63,109 bases of DNA, taken from assembly GCA_021604765.1 (NCBI GenBank), contig BQJP01000014.1, positions 1-63,109 of the forward strand, written 5' to 3'. The notes beneath the pieces are model-generated. The model ran no database searches. It was not told where the DNA came from and saw nothing but the letters and a program-made list of their open reading frames with translations. The translations under genes were made by a program, and so were the position numbers. The stretch is from Thermodesulfobacteriota bacterium. GTDB lineage: Bacteria > Desulfobacterota_D > UBA1144 > Nemesobacterales > UBA2774. This document shows positions 20,065 to 28,823 of the stretch, piece after piece; positions within the stretch are counted from its first letter, which is position 1; each line of letters begins with the position of its first letter.

Positions 20065-21162
20065 ATGAGCAGCCTGAAATCTAAGTTCAGCAAGATACAG
20101 TACACAGCAAAATTTTGGATAATCTTCATCATTTCGCTGATTGTTCTATTGATTTTCTACTACGCTCTGCTTGATAGATATACGCCATATACTGATGATG
20201 CATATATTCAAACCTATGTTGTTCAAGTAGCGCCTCAGGTTGAGGGCAGAGTAATTGGTGTTTATGTTGAGAACAACCAATTTATTGAAGAGGGGCAAAA
20301 ACTCTTTAGCCTCGATCCAAGACCATATGAATATACTGTTGAGCAATTAAAGGCAAATCTGGTCCAGACACAGCAAGAGGTTGATCAACTTAAGAGCGCT
20401 ATCGTTATTGCAGAGCAAGGCGTCAAAGAAGCAGAGGCTAATTTGGTTTTTGCGCAAAGACAATATAACGATTTGGTACCTCTGGCAGAGAAGAATTATA
20501 TAGCTCAGTTAGAACTTGACTCAGCCAGAGACCAATTAAAATCTAGTGAGGCCTTACTAGGGCAATCTAAAGCTGAACTTGTGAGTGCAGAGCAAGCCCT
20601 TGAGTACACAATAGACGGTGAATTTGCGATAATACGGGATATTCAATCTCAACTTGATTATGCTGAATATAATCTTGCTCAGACAACTGTTTATGCCCCC
20701 AGCGACGGTTACATAACCAATTTGCAACTAGTAAACGGCTCTTACATTGATATTGGCGATGCGGTGCTTACATTTGTGGATGATGAGAGCTGGTGGGTAG
20801 TCGCAAACTTTAGAGAGAACAGCATCGGTAGAATTCGAGAAGGCCAAAGCGCTGAGATCTCAATTTCAATGTACCCGGGGAAAATATTTAAAGCGGTAGT
20901 TGAAAATGCTGATTGGGGAGTAAGCGCAGGTCAGGGAGTACCATCTGGTGATTTGCCTGATGTCGAAAATCCCGAAAATTGGTTTAATTTGTCACAGCGT
21001 TTCCCAGTGAGGCTAAAGATTACAAATTTAGATGAGGAGAAATATCCGCTCAGGGTAGGGGGTACAGTGAGTGTCGCCGTTTTTACTGATGGAGGGTTCA
21101 TTCTAAACGGACTTGCAGGACTATGGCTTCGAATTGGAAGTCTAGTAAATTATGTTTACTAA
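20065..21162 (+). CDS. HlyD/EmrA/AaeA-family membrane fusion protein
   Basis: 365 aa. One N-terminal membrane anchor (about 17-36), then the family entry 'TPYTDDAYIQTYVVQVAPQ', a lipoyl-type half, a long alpha-hairpin with coiled coil (about 85-190), the second lipoyl half 'VYAPSDGYITNLQLVNGS', and a beta-barrel domain ('WWVVANFRENSIGRI'). Such adaptors link an inner-membrane pump to a TolC-type channel. The likely pump here is the FUSC protein 2 kb upstream, as in AaeA/AaeB. No outer-membrane channel gene is present. Its end overlaps the convergent GT2 gene by 4 bases. Confidence 0.92.
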   Translation: MSSLKSKFSKIQYTAKFWIIFIISLIVLLIFYYALLDRYTPYTDDAYIQTYVVQVAPQVEGRVIGVYVENNQFIEEGQKLFSLDPRPYEYTVEQLKANLVQTQQEVDQLKSAIVIAEQGVKEAEANLVFAQRQYNDLVPLAEKNYIAQLELDSARDQLKSSEALLGQSKAELVSAEQALEYTIDGEFAIIRDIQSQLDYAEYNLAQTTVYAPSDGYITNLQLVNGSYIDIGDAVLTFVDDESWWVVANFRENSIGRIREGQSAEISISMYPGKIFKAVVENADWGVSAGQGVPSGDLPDVENPENWFNLSQRFPVRLKITNLDEEKYPLRVGGTVSVAVFTDGGFILNGLAGLWLRIGSLVNYVY

Positions 21163-21854
21163 AGATATTTAAAAATTGTCCATAAAATCATGTAACCAGC
21201 TTTAAAACTTCCGCTCAGAGTTCCCGTAATTTTAGAGACTCCAATACGTTTTCGATAATTTACTGGGATCTCGGTACATTTGAACTTCTGCTTTGCCGCT
21301 TTTACCTGCATTTCAACAGTCCATCCGTATGTTTTATCAACCATGTTTAACTCTAAAAGTTTATCAAACTTGATTGCTCTAAATGGTCCAAGATCAGTAA
21401 ATTTCATTCCATATAAGAATCTAATTAAGGTTGTAGCTAGCCAGTTTCCAAATACCTGCTGAGGCATTAGGGCTCCTTCTTCGGCATTCCCCAAATTTCT
21501 TGATCCGATAACCAGATCTATATCATTTTCAATAATTGGTAATACGAGCTTTCTCATCTCTTCAGGATAGTCAGAGTAATCACCATCTAAAAAAACAATT
21601 ATATTAGGACGGTCATTATCAATTTTGTTCGCAGCGTATTCAATTCCTTTTAGACAAGCGTGCCCATAGCCCATTTTAGTCTCGTTGAGAACTGTAGCTC
21701 CTTCATTCTGCGCTATCGAAGAAGTATTATCACTGGAATTATTGTTAACAACTACAACCTCACTCGCTAAGTCTTTAGGAATATCCTGGACCACTTTTCC
21801 TATAGACTCTTCTTCGTTATATGCAGGTATTATGACTAGTATTATAGGTTTCAT
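21159..21854 (-). CDS. GT2 glycosyltransferase, polyprenyl-phosphate sugar synthase type
   Basis: 231 aa, a GT-A fold without membrane helices. Seen: 'IPAYNEEESIGKVVQDIP', 'VVVNNNSSDNT', 'VFLDGDYSDYP' with the DxD metal site, 'VIGSRNLG' and 'FTDLGPFRAI'. It resembles DPM1-like enzymes that move a sugar from a nucleotide donor to undecaprenyl phosphate. It follows the flavin/polyferredoxin gene by 48 bases on the same strand, but no functional link is apparent. Its ribosome site is weak. Confidence 0.9.
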   Translation of the reverse strand: MKPIILVIIPAYNEEESIGKVVQDIPKDLASEVVVVNNNSSDNTSSIAQNEGATVLNETKMGYGHACLKGIEYAANKIDNDRPNIIVFLDGDYSDYPEEMRKLVLPIIENDIDLVIGSRNLGNAEEGALMPQQVFGNWLATTLIRFLYGMKFTDLGPFRAIKFDKLLELNMVDKTYGWTVEMQVKAAKQKFKCTEIPVNYRKRIGVSKITGTLSGSFKAGYMILWTIFKYL

Positions 21855-21902: not shown

Positions 21903-24263
21903 CTACTTTGAAATGTACTCTCTCATAATTACAGGAGATGCTTGCAGCTTATCTATACTAATAACCTCACCAGTCTTTCTATCCACCTGACCAAATTGAA
22001 GTACACCTGTTGGACAGGACTGCACGCATGCGCTGCATCTAACACACTCAGGATCGTTCATTGGCAAACCCTTGTTTGCAAAGTTCATTATATCAATTCC
22101 CTGGTGGCAGACAGATGTGCAAACGTTACAGGAAATACATTTCTTTTTGTTTGGTATTATTCTAAAACGACTGAACCTAGAGTAAATATGCATAAGTGCG
22201 GCTAGCGGGCACATAAATCTGCACCACACTCTGCCGCTATACCAAAAATACAGACCGTATCCTAAAATCCCTGCTAATAATAAATCTACTACCCATTTGT
22301 AATTGAGCTGGATCCCAAAGGGTTTCCAATCATAAAGTAAGCCCGCATATATTCCGTTTATAGTTTGTCCTATTCCCGTGTCAGGCACTGCCCAGCTTAT
22401 GACTCTAGTAATGAGAAGAAAAAATACTATAAGCAAAATTGCCTGTCCTATCATATTAACCCTGTTCCACTTTGCGCCATGGGGCATTTTGTGCCGGTAG
22501 GTGTCTCCAAGGGTTTCTGCCATAGCTCCGCATGAGCATATCCATCCGCAGTAAGCACCCTTACCCCAGTAATAGATCATTGCAGGAATTATGACAAATG
22601 TTTGTATTGCACTAATTACAAGCCATCCCCAAAGTGGTTCATTAGTAAATACGTTCCAAATGAACAATGGCCAGGCTAGAATGAAACCAAATGCTCTCCA
22701 ATATTCACGGCCATGGCCGTAATTGGCTTCAGGAAATAGAGAATCTGCAATAGTATTCATTACTCCTGAATCAAAGAAACCGTAACTGCCAAGTATAGGC
22801 AGAACAAAATAAGGCAGTAGGAAAAGCGGAATAATTTGTATTAATGCTAGTGATGTTGTTTGTAAAGTTATATAGGGCGTTTTTCGTCTTTTGATCCTTA
22901 AGTAGCCAAAAATAATAATAATTACAGTATAAAGAAGAGAGTAATAAAAGCCTGGTTCTTCTAACGTTATTGAAAGAGTTTCTGCTAGATTGGAAGTGCC
23001 TAGACTATTAAAGAAAGGTACAAGATTGTACGGAAACCAGTTGTTGGACTGAAAGAGCTTGGTTAAAGATCCTCCCGCTTTCCAGTTATAAACAAATGTA
23101 AAGAAGATCAAGGAAATTATTAAAGCTGTAAGCCCACTTATTCCAAGCTCTCCGCTTATTCTGACCTTGCTTCTTCTAAAGAAATCAAGAGGCGCCTCAC
23201 GGCCGATCATTGTGAAAACGGCATCATTTGGTATTGTGAGCTCGTTTCCATCTTTGTCTATTAAGGTTGCTTCACTGTCTTCAATCTCTTTTACCTGACT
23301 TTTCATAAGCAGGTTTATTTTCCCGGGCATATGATCTTCTGGCATAAAGTCACCAGTAGAAGTTGTTACACGTTCGGAAGACGGAGTTTCAATAGAAACA
23401 TCTGCCATGGGGTCAGCCATAAGCATATTAATGGCTTCCACATTATCAGGTTTGGGTCTTGAAAAGTCTTCTTTTCTGTAGGAATGTGTTACCGAGCCCC
23501 CGGCACTTGCTATTGCAATGGATGTTTCAAGAGCGCTGTCACCACCGCCCACAACTAAAACATCTTTTCCTTCAAAATCAGTAGGGTCATGCAATCTGTT
23601 AAAGACCTTATCTTTATCTTCCCCAGGAACCCCCAATTTTCTGAAGTTTCCAGAGCGTCCAATTCCAACTATGACCCTTCTTGCTTTTAAATTCTCTTCC
23701 TTGGGAATGATAATTTCAAAGTAGTCGCCTTTCTTCTCGATCTTCTCAACTCGTGCCATTTTAGGCACAATCCCTTTTCCAAGAGTTTGTGTTTTGATTT
23801 CCTCTACAAGCGGTTCTTTAATCTCTTGAGTAAATTGGAGATCTCCAAGTGGGACCATATCTGTCGGGTATGTGTAGATAGGCTTCCCCTTGGGGAAGTT
23901 AACTATTGTTGAAAAAGGTTCTGTCGCTTCTAATATCTCAAAGTGTAGGTCGTCTTTTTTTGCTTCAAGAGCTGCCGCCATCCCAGAAACACCTGCTCCC
24001 ACTATAACCAGATCAAGTATCTCAGAGGTCTTATCCTTGGCACGCTGACTTAGGAAAGTTTTGTCCATGCGAATTGATTCTACAGCTCTGGCTCCAGAGT
24101 CTGATGAGAATTTTAATAACGGGATCCCTGTTAAGTCTCCAACAACATAAAGGCCAGGTATATTGGTTGAATAATCGCTATTTACTTCAGGGAGTTTCTC
24201 TACAACCCCCGCAGGCCATTGCGTATGAAGCCATTTTGTATATTGTGAGATCAATCCAAACAC
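21903..24263 (-). CDS. flavin pyridine-nucleotide oxidoreductase fused to a NapH/CcoG-like polyferredoxin membrane domain
   Basis: 786 aa from a GTG start with AGGAGG upstream. Residues 1-75 resemble the END of an FAD oxidoreductase ('IPGLYVVGDLTG', 'GARAVESI'). Residues 84-365 are a thioredoxin-reductase-like body with FAD site 'VIVGAGVSGMAA' and NAD(P) site 'VLVVGGGDSALE', but no GD motif follows it. Membrane helices (about 375-670) follow, including the NapH/NosR-type 'CGWICSCGAMAE' and 'CRFMCPLAAL'. Two 4Fe-4S sites finish it: C709/C712/C715/C719 and C740/C743/C746/C750. It probably moves electrons between NAD(P)H, flavin, membrane and Fe-S centres; direction and partner are unknown. The order of the flavin parts suggests circular permutation. 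Confidence 0.85.
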   Translation of the reverse strand: MFGLISQYTKWLHTQWPAGVVEKLPEVNSDYSTNIPGLYVVGDLTGIPLLKFSSDSGARAVESIRMDKTFLSQRAKDKTSEILDLVIVGAGVSGMAAALEAKKDDLHFEILEATEPFSTIVNFPKGKPIYTYPTDMVPLGDLQFTQEIKEPLVEEIKTQTLGKGIVPKMARVEKIEKKGDYFEIIIPKEENLKARRVIVGIGRSGNFRKLGVPGEDKDKVFNRLHDPTDFEGKDVLVVGGGDSALETSIAIASAGGSVTHSYRKEDFSRPKPDNVEAINMLMADPMADVSIETPSSERVTTSTGDFMPEDHMPGKINLLMKSQVKEIEDSEATLIDKDGNELTIPNDAVFTMIGREAPLDFFRRSKVRISGELGISGLTALIISLIFFTFVYNWKAGGSLTKLFQSNNWFPYNLVPFFNSLGTSNLAETLSITLEEPGFYYSLLYTVIIIIFGYLRIKRRKTPYITLQTTSLALIQIIPLFLLPYFVLPILGSYGFFDSGVMNTIADSLFPEANYGHGREYWRAFGFILAWPLFIWNVFTNEPLWGWLVISAIQTFVIIPAMIYYWGKGAYCGWICSCGAMAETLGDTYRHKMPHGAKWNRVNMIGQAILLIVFFLLITRVISWAVPDTGIGQTINGIYAGLLYDWKPFGIQLNYKWVVDLLLAGILGYGLYFWYSGRVWCRFMCPLAALMHIYSRFSRFRIIPNKKKCISCNVCTSVCHQGIDIMNFANKGLPMNDPECVRCSACVQSCPTGVLQFGQVDRKTGEVISIDKLQASPVIMREYISK

Positions 24264-24340: not shown

Positions 24341-25111
24341 TTATTTTTTTGTTGATTTTAAGTCGTTTAATGACCAGTCGTAATTTGTATATTGAATCTC
24401 AAAGCCGCTATTTGCCTGGTTATTAAAGTATGGGTTAACAAACTCAATAACAGAACCGGATTTTGCTATAAAATCTTTCTTATACCAGTTAAATATAGGT
24501 GAAAGCCTGAGTATTTGCTGCTCACTATCTATAGAGTTCTTGTCCGGGTCCAGAAGAAATGCTTTTGTTTGCTGATCTAGTTGATTTTCTAGTGTTGCTG
24601 TTTGATATGGTGTATTTAATAAAGCAGGGCATCCTAGAGCAGCACATACTAACGCAAAATGTACTCTGGGATCAGGATAGTTTTTTCTAATAACCTCATG
24701 CTCAAGAGCATTTAATGTGATTTTATCTCCAAAGAGGGCTACAATCGGCTGTTCCCAAGGTCCTCCTGAATCGCTGGAAATATCTTTAATACTTTTTACT
24801 GGGTAATTGTTTGCTACTAGATCAAGAGTTTGTGCATTATAGAGATTTATTAGGAATGCTAGCTGTTCGTTTTTGTTCCATTCATCAAAAGTTTGTTTGG
24901 AAGTGGAGGATATTTGATCTAAATATTTATTTAGAATTTTTGGATTTGATTTTAATCCGGAATAATCAACTAAACCATCTTTTTCATAACTCTTTAAGAC
25001 TTTCTCGTATAGTTGGTTTGAGTTATTTGGTGGGTTTGCAATTGAGCTTTGATTGGCAAATAGTAAAACCAGGAAAATTAGGGTGAAAATTCGACTAAAG
25101 CAGGCTTTCAT
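24341..25111 (-). CDS. exported DUF547 protein
   Basis: 256 aa with a signal peptide (about 1-25). The DUF547 signatures are present: 'QLAFLINLYNAQTLDLV' and 'HFALVCAALGCPALLN', and a late 'FNWYKKDFI'. The family is found in many aerobic bacteria and plants; its activity is not established. An upstream ATG would add 45 residues but hides the signal peptide and runs into the GH15 gene; the ATG at 25111 has AAGGAGA 8 bases before it, so I chose it. It sits within a co-directional run from the sigma-K-like factor to GT2. Confidence 0.88.
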   Translation of the reverse strand: MKACFSRIFTLIFLVLLFANQSSIANPPNNSNQLYEKVLKSYEKDGLVDYSGLKSNPKILNKYLDQISSTSKQTFDEWNKNEQLAFLINLYNAQTLDLVANNYPVKSIKDISSDSGGPWEQPIVALFGDKITLNALEHEVIRKNYPDPRVHFALVCAALGCPALLNTPYQTATLENQLDQQTKAFLLDPDKNSIDSEQQILRLSPIFNWYKKDFIAKSGSVIEFVNPYFNNQANSGFEIQYTNYDWSLNDLKSTKK

Positions 25112-25178
25112 AAAACCCGTCTCCTTAAAGATTAAGTAACTACTTATTACCCTATACGCAGGGTTTGGGCCTTTAGTT

Positions 25179-26528
25179 TCATTCTTCGCGATGTATTTTC
25201 CACCAATCACCGGCTCTAAGAAGCAGTGCTCTGGCATATTCAGCATGAGACCACATTAGAGGAGCAGCGAACTGTATATAGCCGCCCTCAGAGCTCGTAT
25301 GATCTCTGATTATACAGTGACTGCCAGTTTCTTCGTAGGATTTATGCATATTGTTTGCTTCTTCTAGAATCTTATCAAAATCTACATTATCTAATAATAT
25401 GGGTTTGTAGAACTCTTTCTGGAAATCAATACCTGTGTTCCATTCTCGCTCCATAAACTCCTCGAACCTTCTGCATGTTGAGAGATGTTCAGGTATTTCA
25501 CCTTTCTCGTTCTTATAGGAGTCAATCATTTTGAGTAATTCATCTCCTCTTGATATATTGCCATTCCAGTAATGAAATTGGGCAAGAACTGCTGTGTATT
25601 GAAGCCATGGACCATTCCCCGCATGGACATGGGTGGAGAAATCTTTATAAAACGGCAGATAGCGCATTATCATTCCCAGCTCCGGATCCCACAACTGTTT
25701 TTCAATATAATTAACACTGTTTTCCATCTGTGTCTTGTAATGCAAAAATCCAAAATAAAACGGACTGAGTAGGGTAAAATCAGGTCTCATATCTCTAGTA
25801 CCGTCAGGAGCTGTTCTTCTGATATACCTACTATCACCAATAAATAATTCACTTACAGAATATAGAAACTGATGTCTGAAGTTAAGAAAATCGGCCTTAA
25901 TGATATTCTTTTTGTCTTTTTTATCCGCAACTTCATTTGCCAGAGAGTATGCATAAAGGAATGAGAAATTAACCCAACAGGTGTAGCCTTCTTCCATTGC
26001 TGATTCATGAATTGAAGTTGTTGAATAAAAGAGATTTAGTTCTTTTTCATAGAGTTTTGTATAGCTGTGATCAAGCGCTTTATTTATACAGACGAAAAAA
26101 TCATCCATATCTTTAACTTCTCTTTTTAAAAACCTTGCAGTGAGAAGATAGTTGCAAATTATTGCAATACCATGCGCTACGTTGTCTTCTTGCTTATAAA
26201 TACTTTTGTCTTCTCCATCTAAGCTATAACGCTGTCCCCAGCTTCCTTCGGGGGAAATGCAGTCTTTCATGAAATGAGCCATTGACTCCATTATTTTAAA
26301 AGCCTGCTCTCTGCAGTCGTAGTCGTTAGTGGATCCTGCAAGCCTTCTCATTAGCTGTGTGGCACAGTTAGTATCTCTTGGATATACATATGGGTATCTC
26401 GATTTGGGAGGGGAAGCTAAAAGAAGCCTTCCATACTTCTTGTTCTCAATTGTGCATTTTAGGATTATCTCCATATGCTCATTGAGTTGGTCATTGAGTT
26501 TAGTTAACTCTTTAGTCCGTTTTGCCAT
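25179..26528 (-). CDS. GH15-family glycoside hydrolase (glucoamylase-like)
   Basis: 449 aa, cytoplasmic by appearance (no signal peptide). It shows an (alpha/alpha)6-barrel pattern typical of GH15 catalytic domains: 'YPYVYPRDTN' near residue 50, 'SPEGSWGQRYSLDG', 'ESAMEEGYTCWVNFSFLYAYSLA' and a late 'APLMWSHAEYARALLLRAG'. GH15 enzymes release glucose from the ends of alpha-glucans or act on trehalose and dextran; the catalytic glutamates were not assigned with certainty. GGGAGGG precedes the ATG. It starts 27 bases after the anti-sigma gene, suggesting co-transcription. Confidence 0.82.
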   Translation of the reverse strand: MAKRTKELTKLNDQLNEHMEIILKCTIENKKYGRLLLASPPKSRYPYVYPRDTNCATQLMRRLAGSTNDYDCREQAFKIMESMAHFMKDCISPEGSWGQRYSLDGEDKSIYKQEDNVAHGIAIICNYLLTARFLKREVKDMDDFFVCINKALDHSYTKLYEKELNLFYSTTSIHESAMEEGYTCWVNFSFLYAYSLANEVADKKDKKNIIKADFLNFRHQFLYSVSELFIGDSRYIRRTAPDGTRDMRPDFTLLSPFYFGFLHYKTQMENSVNYIEKQLWDPELGMIMRYLPFYKDFSTHVHAGNGPWLQYTAVLAQFHYWNGNISRGDELLKMIDSYKNEKGEIPEHLSTCRRFEEFMEREWNTGIDFQKEFYKPILLDNVDFDKILEEANNMHKSYEETGSHCIIRDHTSSEGGYIQFAAPLMWSHAEYARALLLRAGDWWKIHREE

Positions 26529-26555
26529 AATTAGTACCCTCCCTAACTATTTGTT

Positions 26556-27332
26556 CTATATAGATCCAGCTAAATAAGTTGCTCCCGTTGGATGAGGCAT
26601 GCCTCCATCAGGTTCTAGTGTAATGAGTACCTCCATTTCTTTTGAAGGTCTAGGCATGGATTTTATTTCCATCATTTCCTCACCATTTTCATTTACTTTA
26701 AATGTGCCCAAGCTAACAGGTATCCCCTTCTCCATACACCATACTTGATATGTCATTCCTTCTTCAAGAGTTGGTATGTTGGATACTAATAGTAAAGCTT
26801 TGGTTGAATCTTCATCCCAAAGAAGCTTCCCAGAGGAGTTTAGCTCAGACATTGTTCCTGCTAGTTTTACAGTCTGCACGTTAGGTTTCATAACGTAATT
26901 CATGACTTCGGTATCTTTTCCGAGACTCGCCTGCAAGTTCTTTATGTCTTGTTTCTGCACAGACAGCTCATTTCTTAAAGACATATTGTTCGCAAAAAGA
27001 AATACTAATAATCCTACAGCTACAGCGCTTCCTAGATTTAGCCATATAGGTTTAATACTGTTCCAGAAGCCCAACCTCGGGGATCTTGAAGGTGTGGATT
27101 CCTGGGCCTCTATTTTGTCGAATATCTTGGCCTCAATTTCCGGATTGAGAGGGCTATCCTCCAGGGAGTATGCTATTGAGTTCAATGCTAACTCATTTTC
27201 TCTAATCAACTGTTCGCATATCTCACAACCAGTGTCTAAATGCTCTTCTAGCTGTCTGAGCTCGTAGCCTTTTAAAATACCAAGAGCAAAAAGTGTTATC
27301 TGGTCTTCATATTTTTCTTTATTGTGGCCCAT
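26556..27332 (-). CDS. RskA-like transmembrane anti-sigma factor
   Basis: 258 aa. An N-terminal anti-sigma domain has the zinc-type motif 'HLDTGCEICEQLI'. One membrane helix (about 98-113) follows, then a periplasmic domain with 'LWDEDSTKALLLVSNIPTLEEGMTYQVW' in part, the RskA (anti-sigma-K) signature. It should hold the adjacent sigma factor at the membrane until a signal triggers release or proteolysis. Its ATG directly abuts the sigma stop codon, and GAGGA within the last sigma codons is the ribosome site, so the two are translationally coupled. Confidence 0.92.
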   Translation of the reverse strand: MGHNKEKYEDQITLFALGILKGYELRQLEEHLDTGCEICEQLIRENELALNSIAYSLEDSPLNPEIEAKIFDKIEAQESTPSRSPRLGFWNSIKPIWLNLGSAVAVGLLVFLFANNMSLRNELSVQKQDIKNLQASLGKDTEVMNYVMKPNVQTVKLAGTMSELNSSGKLLWDEDSTKALLLVSNIPTLEEGMTYQVWCMEKGIPVSLGTFKVNENGEEMMEIKSMPRPSKEMEVLITLEPDGGMPHPTGATYLAGSI

Positions 27333-27905
27333 CTAATTAAATTCCTCAATATATGGCATGATTTTATCTTTTAATTTCATTACCCCTAAGCGGATCCTCG
27401 TTTTAATGGTTCCGACAGGCTCTTCAAGTTCTTCCGCTGCCTCTATATGCGTAAGGCCTCCAAAATAAACCAACTCTATGGCAATACGCTGTTTTTCCGG
27501 CAATGAATTTAGCGCCTGTCTAATTACATTCTTGCTTTCATCTTTGTCTTCGATAGTACGAGACAAATCAACATTTGAGTTCAATCTTTCTTCGTCAATT
27601 TCTACATTTTTATCTCTATATCCTATAGTTCTTAATTTATCAATTGATCTGCTTCTTGCAATATTCAGTACCCAAGTGGACACAGCCCCTCTATCAGGAT
27701 CATAGGAATACGCTTTGTTCCAAACTTGCAAGAATATTTCCTGTACCACTTCCTCAGCATCTTCTTTATCTCTGAGAATTCTGAGCGCTAGGTTATATGT
27801 TACTTGGGAGAAACGGGAGTAAATCTCTTTAAATGCAGTTTTATCGCCCTGTTTTACTTGGTCAATTAGTTCCCTATCTAGTTCGCGATTAGATTTTTGC
27901 TGCAT
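27333..27905 (-). CDS. ECF sigma factor, sigma-K-like
   Basis: About 190 aa. Region 2 is 'AFKEIYSRFSQVTYNLALRI' followed by 'DAEEVVQEIFLQVW'; region 4 is 'LPEKQRIAIELVYFGGLTH' followed by 'IEAAEELEEPVGTIKTRIR'. Paired with an RskA-like anti-sigma, this is the sigma-K pattern. A longer frame begins at 28055, but a good promoter (27934-27961) overlaps that extension, so I start at the ATG at 27905, which gives a normal ECF length. The ribosome site there is weak. Confidence 0.9.
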   Translation of the reverse strand: MQQKSNRELDRELIDQVKQGDKTAFKEIYSRFSQVTYNLALRILRDKEDAEEVVQEIFLQVWNKAYSYDPDRGAVSTWVLNIARSRSIDKLRTIGYRDKNVEIDEERLNSNVDLSRTIEDKDESKNVIRQALNSLPEKQRIAIELVYFGGLTHIEAAEELEEPVGTIKTRIRLGVMKLKDKIMPYIEEFN

Positions 27906-27933
27906 ATTTAGAGTACCAACCAATCTTTGAACC

Positions 27934-27961
27934 ATTGTAGTTAAATCATAGTTTTTGTCAA
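27934..27961 (-). promoter_or_regulatory. sigma-70 type promoter of the sigma-K/anti-sigma operon
   Basis: On the minus strand, a perfect TTGACA (27956-27961) and TACAAT (27934-27939, five of six) are 16 bases apart. Expected transcript start is near 27927. It lies within the N-terminal extension of the longest sigma frame and so argues for the shorter start. Confidence 0.55.
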
Positions 27962-28124
27962 TTAGGAATTTGGTCTTTAGCTCTAATATTATGCACAGTA
28001 AAGCGAGTACAGGTTTAAGAAGACTTATATGATAAGTTTCATATCTAGCAAGCATAATTATTTTTACTAATTCTGGTTTCCTTTCTTGTTTGTTATTTGG
28101 CTATCTGCACACAACGCAGTCATA

Positions 28125-28823
28125 TTATCCAGAAAAATAGTCTGATATCTTCTCTTTTAACGAAAGTCTGGTCCTTAGAACTCTTGATTTAACTGCAGAG
28201 AGTGAGAGTCCAGTGAGTTTTCCAATTTCTGCGTTTGAAAAACCGTGAATATCTTTAAGGCTAAAAATTTCTCTATTGCTTTGTGTCAACTCATTAACTG
28301 CACCGTCAATTACTTTCATTCTTTCTTGATATTCCACAATCTCATCCGGTTTTGTTTTCCATTGCGGACACAAAGTAGCTTGGCTAAGAAGAGTTTCATC
28401 CAGATTAACTTCTTTGTTTGTTCTTTTTTTTGTATGGTTTAGATATTTATAACAGGTGTTAAGCGTAACTCTATAGAGCCAGGTTGAGAATTTCGAATTT
28501 CCTTTATAAGTATGGAGCTTTGTTATCAGGATTAAAAAAACATCTTGTCTAATTTCTTCAGCGTCTTGCATATTTCTAATGAGTTTCATAGAAAACCCCA
28601 TGATTATGTCCTTGTACTTTTCGACAATTTGATTAAAGGCTTCCTCATCTTGGTTATTAACATACAGACTCACAAGGGCTTCATCCGTAGCTTCTTTGTA
28701 TTTAAATGGCAGAGAATAAAGATTGTGTGCTGTAGTGTTGTTTGAAGATTCATTAACATCATGTTTGTGTCTTGAATCATACGACTCTTCTATTTCCAAA
28801 AGTGCTGTATTTGATTCTTTCAT
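28125..28823 (-). CDS. ECF-type RNA polymerase sigma factor
   Basis: 232 aa. An N-terminal stretch of about 40 polar residues is followed by region 2 ('FNQIVEKYKDIIMGFSMKLI', 'DAEEIRQDVFLILITKL', 'FSTWLYRVTLNTCYKYL') and region 4 ('LTQSNREIFSLKDIHGFSN', 'LSLSAVKSRVLRTRLSL'). No anti-sigma gene is adjacent. AGGAGA lies 10 bases upstream of the ATG. A TAGAAC-17-CGTATA element upstream may mean self-regulation. It is separate from the sigma-K-like operon. Confidence 0.93.
   Translation of the reverse strand: MKESNTALLEIEESYDSRHKHDVNESSNNTTAHNLYSLPFKYKEATDEALVSLYVNNQDEEAFNQIVEKYKDIIMGFSMKLIRNMQDAEEIRQDVFLILITKLHTYKGNSKFSTWLYRVTLNTCYKYLNHTKKRTNKEVNLDETLLSQATLCPQWKTKPDEIVEYQERMKVIDGAVNELTQSNREIFSLKDIHGFSNAEIGKLTGLSLSAVKSRVLRTRLSLKEKISDYFSG

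Follow-up and report, generated by a model that had tools for sequence, protein, structure and literature searches.

The window, i.e. the whole stretch of DNA analysed here (63,109 nucleotides), carries on its minus strand a gene that begins with a GTG codon at 24263 and ends at 21903. The open frame around it comprises 793 codons, with 7 further codons ahead of the start, so that no in-frame upstream domain is possible. The gene, its parts and its two neighbours are as follows (residues are those of the 786-residue product):

24341..25246, minus strand (same strand as the gene): upstream neighbour, DUF547 (PF04784), gap of 77 bp
21903..24263, minus strand: whole gene, a putatively permuted FAD/NAD(P) core followed by a membrane NapH-like polyferredoxin, 786 aa
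24060..24206, minus strand: putative relocated closing segment of the FAD domain, residues 20-68, corresponding to the C-terminal ~50 residues of YpdA/TrxR
24126..24155, minus strand: GD motif GLYVVGDLTG, residues 37-46, with a predicted strand at 38-40
23148..24026, minus strand: flavoprotein body, residues 80-372 (FAD and NAD(P) sub-domains), ending at canonical YpdA position ~273
23982..23999, minus strand: FAD motif GxGxxG, residues 89-94, invariant
23532..23549, minus strand: NAD(P) motif GGGDSA, residues 239-244, followed by conserved R263, R269 and K271 (probably NADPH-type)
22254..23141, minus strand: membrane domain, residues 375-670, about six predicted membrane helices
22530..22550, minus strand: motif C572xxxC576xC578
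22209..22223, minus strand: motif C681xxxC685P (NapH/NosR-like)
22014..22139, minus strand: 2[4Fe-4S] ferredoxin domain, residues 709-750
21159..21854, minus strand (same strand as the gene): downstream neighbour, GT2 glycosyltransferase, AglJ-like (below cut-off)

Pfam and NCBIfam matches were obtained for the flavoprotein body (residues 84-369), the NapH-like membrane domain and the 2[4Fe-4S] ferredoxin with its two cysteine sets, C709/712/715/719 and C740/743/746/750. The FAD (GxGxxG) and NAD(P) (GxGxxA/G) Rossmann sites of the TrxR/YpdA fold are both present. Residues 1-80 had no match in these databases, except that residues 26-66 weakly matched the GD region of lipoamide dehydrogenase (positions 290-331). 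The membrane and ferredoxin part contains 13 conserved cysteines. An earlier, sequence-only reading of this DNA had listed the motifs GLYVVGDLTG (37-46), GARAV, GxGxxG (89-94) and GGG (239-241), and all of these were confirmed, with GARAV at 57-61. Its description of the second half as a NapH/CcoG-like membrane domain with two 4Fe-4S sites also stands, and the C572xxxCxC and C681xxxC motifs can be added to it.

The same reading had interpreted the position of the GD motif ahead of the FAD site as a circular permutation. Pfam is blind beyond the body and gave no additional score for the un-permuted chain; the permutation was therefore tested with NCBIfam and hhalign instead. In permuted relatives, the match to the NCBIfam YpdA model ends at position ~264-272 of 316. 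In hhalign comparisons with an alignment of 30 canonical YpdA proteins, the body was aligned to positions 6-273 (E 6e-57) and the N-terminal segment to positions 276-330 (E 4.5e-6). The two matches are thus complementary, with zero overlap. Re-ordering the profile into the un-permuted form yielded a single alignment of 313 columns (E 6.7e-63) with a score of 448.6, versus 403.6 for the native order. These profile comparisons, together with the structure models and the covariation described below, support the reading of residues 20-68 as the relocated closing segment, and circular permutation is the best explanation of the domain order, as had been proposed.

A scan of GTDB genomes revealed 118 relatives, 80 of which were kept. 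They belong to Planctomycetota, Verrucomicrobiota, Gemmatimonadota, Latescibacterota, Myxococcota, Acidobacteriota and others. Complete relatives share the N-terminus WLHxxWPAGxVExLP…GLYxVGDLTGxPLLKFS…GARAV. The order is retained in ~80 homologues with 48-92% identity from many phyla, which is far beyond chance. Residues G42, G46, G89, G91 and G94 are invariant in an alignment of 112 members that extends down to 28% identity, and the N-terminal segment is conserved as strongly as the body. Wider genome searches enlarged the set to 318 cores. A hidden Markov model of residues 20-68 placed the GD segment before the body in 318 of 318 testable cores and after it in none; the canonical order, with a closing GD segment behind the NAD(P) domain, was thus found in 0 of the 318 homologues. 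This agrees with the earlier observation on the single protein that no GD motif follows the NAD(P) domain, and with the expectation that homologues share the order.

Relatives were detected in 55 of 199 Planctomycetota genomes sampled with the full protein as a query and, with the core as a query and slightly different thresholds, in 89 of 284 Myxococcota and 49 of 395 Bacteroidota genomes. The permuted core is therefore widespread, occurring in about a quarter to a third of the sampled Planctomycetota and Myxococcota genomes. In a quick tree constructed from the body only, every permuted core fell on one side of a branch with 77% support. This topology is compatible with, but no proof of, one origin of the permuted cores.

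The template-free AlphaFold2 model of the protein has a pLDDT of 92.7 and a pTM of 0.87, with values of 88-97 for residues 1-75. In this model, DSSP assigns a strand (38-40) and a helix (50-66) to the N-terminal segment. No second strand of at least 3 residues occurs within residues 1-75, so that strand 38-40 should pair with the body. The same picture was obtained in a template-free model of a ferredoxin-type relative (L129; pTM 0.87; strand 135-137, helix 147-164). The closest folds of the models in Foldseek were YpdA, TrxR and TrxR-type FNR; these alignments are sequential and by themselves unable to show a permutation.

Covariation analysis of 270 cores ranked V61-L85 first in the entire domain. 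This pair links the helix of the N-terminal segment to the FAD strand β1, and is followed by D43-F123, E62-E100, R65-D104, L38-V367, V41-S93 and V40-A357. The couplings L38-V367, L24-I369 and N34-R368 place the new chain ends next to each other. Couplings between segment and body accounted for 27 of the top 100 pairs and for 0 of 100 after random re-pairing of the N-segments, a control that also destroys shared ancestry. For this reason, the recurrence of V61-L85 in two disjoint subfamilies analysed separately (rank 1 in the NapH class and rank 3 in the ferredoxin class) is the stronger argument. Taken with the DSSP assignments, these couplings support a model in which the closing segment would pack on the FAD domain, as the sequence-only reading had anticipated. 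The opposite arrangement, in which residues 1-75 form a separate unit, is contradicted by both the AlphaFold2 model and the covariation with the body.

The segment might, in principle, be the remnant of a second flavoprotein domain lost from the upstream side, in which case the body would be an incomplete flavoprotein. Taken alone, the segment indeed scores best against lipoamide dehydrogenase-type models rather than TrxR. An upstream domain of this kind was, however, present in no homologue. The segment equals the body in conservation, supplies precisely those canonical positions that the body lacks, and covaries with it. We rejected this explanation as extremely improbable in view of the 7 upstream codons, the order in 318 of 318 cores and the complementary hhalign matches. 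It is also conceivable that the segment closes the FAD site of the other subunit of a dimer instead of that of its own chain, since covariation and conservation are blind to the difference between intra- and inter-chain contacts. Single-chain AlphaFold2 models, however, place the segment confidently in two architectures, and only ~14 residues separate it from the body, which makes local packing in cis the natural arrangement. A swap in trans is therefore considered unlikely.

The permuted core is nearly always accompanied by Fe-S modules. In the class represented by the window gene, it is followed by a C-terminal NapH-like membrane polyferredoxin. The second architecture (~430-500 aa) consists of an N-terminal TM anchor, a 2[4Fe-4S] ferredoxin and the core, with nothing at the C-terminus. 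In the third (e.g. L134), the TM anchor, 2[4Fe-4S] module and core are supplemented by an extra membrane domain. With the new chain ends side by side, Fe-S partners can attach at either end. The earlier proposal that permutation frees the C-terminus for fusion thus fits the class of the window gene but not the second large architecture, where the Fe-S module is N-terminal. Two divergent NapH-class paralogues (~30% identical) are arranged in tandem or nearly so in Phycisphaerae (L019 / L181:5601-11060, L031). Also, the genome from which the window derives encodes a stand-alone NapH-like protein without a flavin domain (L002; G000:C11:4874-5872), which is 33% identical to the membrane half and widespread in the same phylum.

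The protein is probably a membrane-bound, NAD(P)H-dependent enzyme of electron transfer whose core is a circularly permuted FAD-NAD(P) domain of the YpdA/TrxR type, and we infer the following electron route for it. Residues 20-68 would turn back to supply the strand and helix that are needed to close the FAD site. FAD would be reduced by NADPH, as the conservation of R263, R269 and K271 suggests; R263 and R269 are 96% conserved, and K127 is ~100% conserved. Single electrons would then pass from FAD to the two cytosolic [4Fe-4S] clusters and, via the membrane-side cysteine motifs, to quinone (probably) or another membrane acceptor. Because the membrane helices are predicted to be even in number, flavin and ferredoxin would lie on the same side. 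A working analogy may be a ferredoxin-NADP+ reductase of the TrxR type that is wired to a ferredoxin of its own. Some relatives may supply reductant to the ArsM/ArsS organoarsenic (arsenosugar-type) pathway.

Since profiles and folds match YpdA and TrxR best, the protein could also be read as a thiol/disulfide reductase of the bacillithiol or thioredoxin type with a membrane domain fused to it. YpdA has a redox cysteine of its own. The core conservation check revealed neither a CxxC motif nor any conserved cysteine in the flavoprotein core, which argues against a disulfide reductase and makes this function very improbable; the thiol partner suggested earlier is unlikely for the same reason. 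Redox work would be done by FAD and Fe-S rather than by a redox disulfide. The same permuted fold could also operate in reverse, with a quinol or periplasmic donor reducing NADP+ through the Fe-S chain. NapH and NosR relatives are usually described as quinol-side components, and the sequence gives no direction. Reversed flow would, however, be uphill unless coupled to a gradient, and the linkage to ArsM/ArsS clusters suggests a reductive need. We therefore regard this direction as a minor possibility and the NADPH-driven one as the preferred reading.

DUF547 and the AglJ-like GT2 glycosyltransferase, which flank the window gene, are both recurrent neighbours of the family. DUF547 was the immediate neighbour in 16 of about 80 loci, and also in close relatives of the window gene. 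Upstream, the window contains a same-strand run (25179-28823) with a 449-aa protein that has no Pfam/NCBIfam match, an anti-sigma-like gene (just under cut-off) and two genes that look sigma-like by sequence inspection only; this run is perhaps a regulator of the operon. At other loci, DUF547/GT2 are accompanied by ArsS, ArsM, a phosphorylase resembling MTAP and glycosyltransferases of TIGR04282/TIGR04283; ArsM and MTAP were assigned from sub-cut-off scores. One locus (L174) displays the same-strand run DUF547-ArsS-ArsM-permuted flavoprotein gene-MTAP-like-TIGR04282.

By coordinates alone, ArsS was linked to the permuted gene in ~9 of 50 searched genomes; several of these pairs were located on different contigs and were dropped, which left 5 of 50 with ArsS within ~2 kb, compared to a rough chance estimate of ~0.1. 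Adjacent ArsS genes were recorded at L028, L064, L066, L067, L072 and L190, the last being additional to this count. The genome of the window gene encodes ArsS on another contig, not adjacent to the gene, so that an arsenic role of the latter is a lead only, and its link to arsenosugar clusters is suggestive. At the genome level, ArsS was found in 37 of 50 genomes; this co-occurrence was set aside as evidence, ArsS being common also in relatives without the permuted gene. Probable ArsM-ArsS fusion proteins were noticed at L176:1539-3689 and in three genomes (G279, G287, G301) whose ArsS matches lie in frames of 715-797 aa.

A different conserved neighbourhood was observed for the ferredoxin-type class (L383:4216-12377, L384, L390, L392, L397, L400). 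It includes a short membrane protein, large multihaem cytochromes (~20 and 22-37 CxxCH), a protein of ~540 aa that has no Pfam match and may be a barrel, and in many cases a TPR protein. Multihaem neighbours were present in 17 of 20 ferredoxin-type loci, and the arrangement looks like an electron conduit.

A broader scenario, which we offer tentatively and consider possible rather than probable, is that a single ancient permutation of a YpdA/TrxR protein gave rise to a superfamily of membrane Fe-S reductases driven by NADPH. Of its classes, the one with the window gene would be an unrecognised reductase of organoarsenic (arsenosugar) biosynthesis, and another would feed multihaem-cytochrome conduits. 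The neighbourhoods provide testable leads to electron supply for two poorly understood processes, organoarsenic biosynthesis and multihaem cytochrome conduits. The permuted core is common (hundreds of bacteria) and evidently functional, and it illustrates how re-cutting a flavin domain allows Fe-S electron wires to be joined to either terminus. Because automated annotation recognises the body alone, the domain looks incomplete in every protein that carries it.

Large two-domain redox enzymes are rarely circularly permuted in nature, and we know of no case described in the thioredoxin-reductase/disulfide-reductase family. Searches of the open literature for a circularly permuted TrxR, flavoprotein or disulfide oxidoreductase retrieved only biosensor or unrelated papers, and no name for the permuted arrangement was found in the databases or open literature searched.

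Several members of the permuted family lie inside oxo-arsenosugar clusters with the radical SAM protein ArsS (TIGR04167) and ArsM. The ArsS reaction has been reviewed (PMC12159101), and a reductase of the permuted type is not mentioned in the parts of that review considered here. The NapH / NosR / CcoG membrane ferredoxins (TIGR02163, NF007013) likewise possess membrane helices, two CxxxC motifs and a C-terminal 2[4Fe-4S] domain, but lack a fused NAD(P)H-flavin domain, and the first motif of the window protein is CxxxCxC. Its score against the NapH model (61.5) is below the whole-protein cut-off of 213, and we therefore use the label NapH-like, not NapH. The closest profile and fold for the body is the bacillithiol disulfide reductase YpdA/Bdr (TIGR04018; PDB 7a76, 7a7b, 7apr), with which it shares an NFPKGKP-like loop and the NAD(P) site; the whole protein scores 123 bits, below the curated cut-off of 339.9. 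YpdA/Bdr differs in its canonical order and in being soluble and free of Fe-S. The TrxR-type ferredoxin-NADP+ reductases (PDB 3ab1, 5ygq, 6gar) are likewise FAD/NADPH enzymes without CxxC that deliver electrons to Fe-S clusters, but they are soluble, display the canonical order and use a separate ferredoxin protein.
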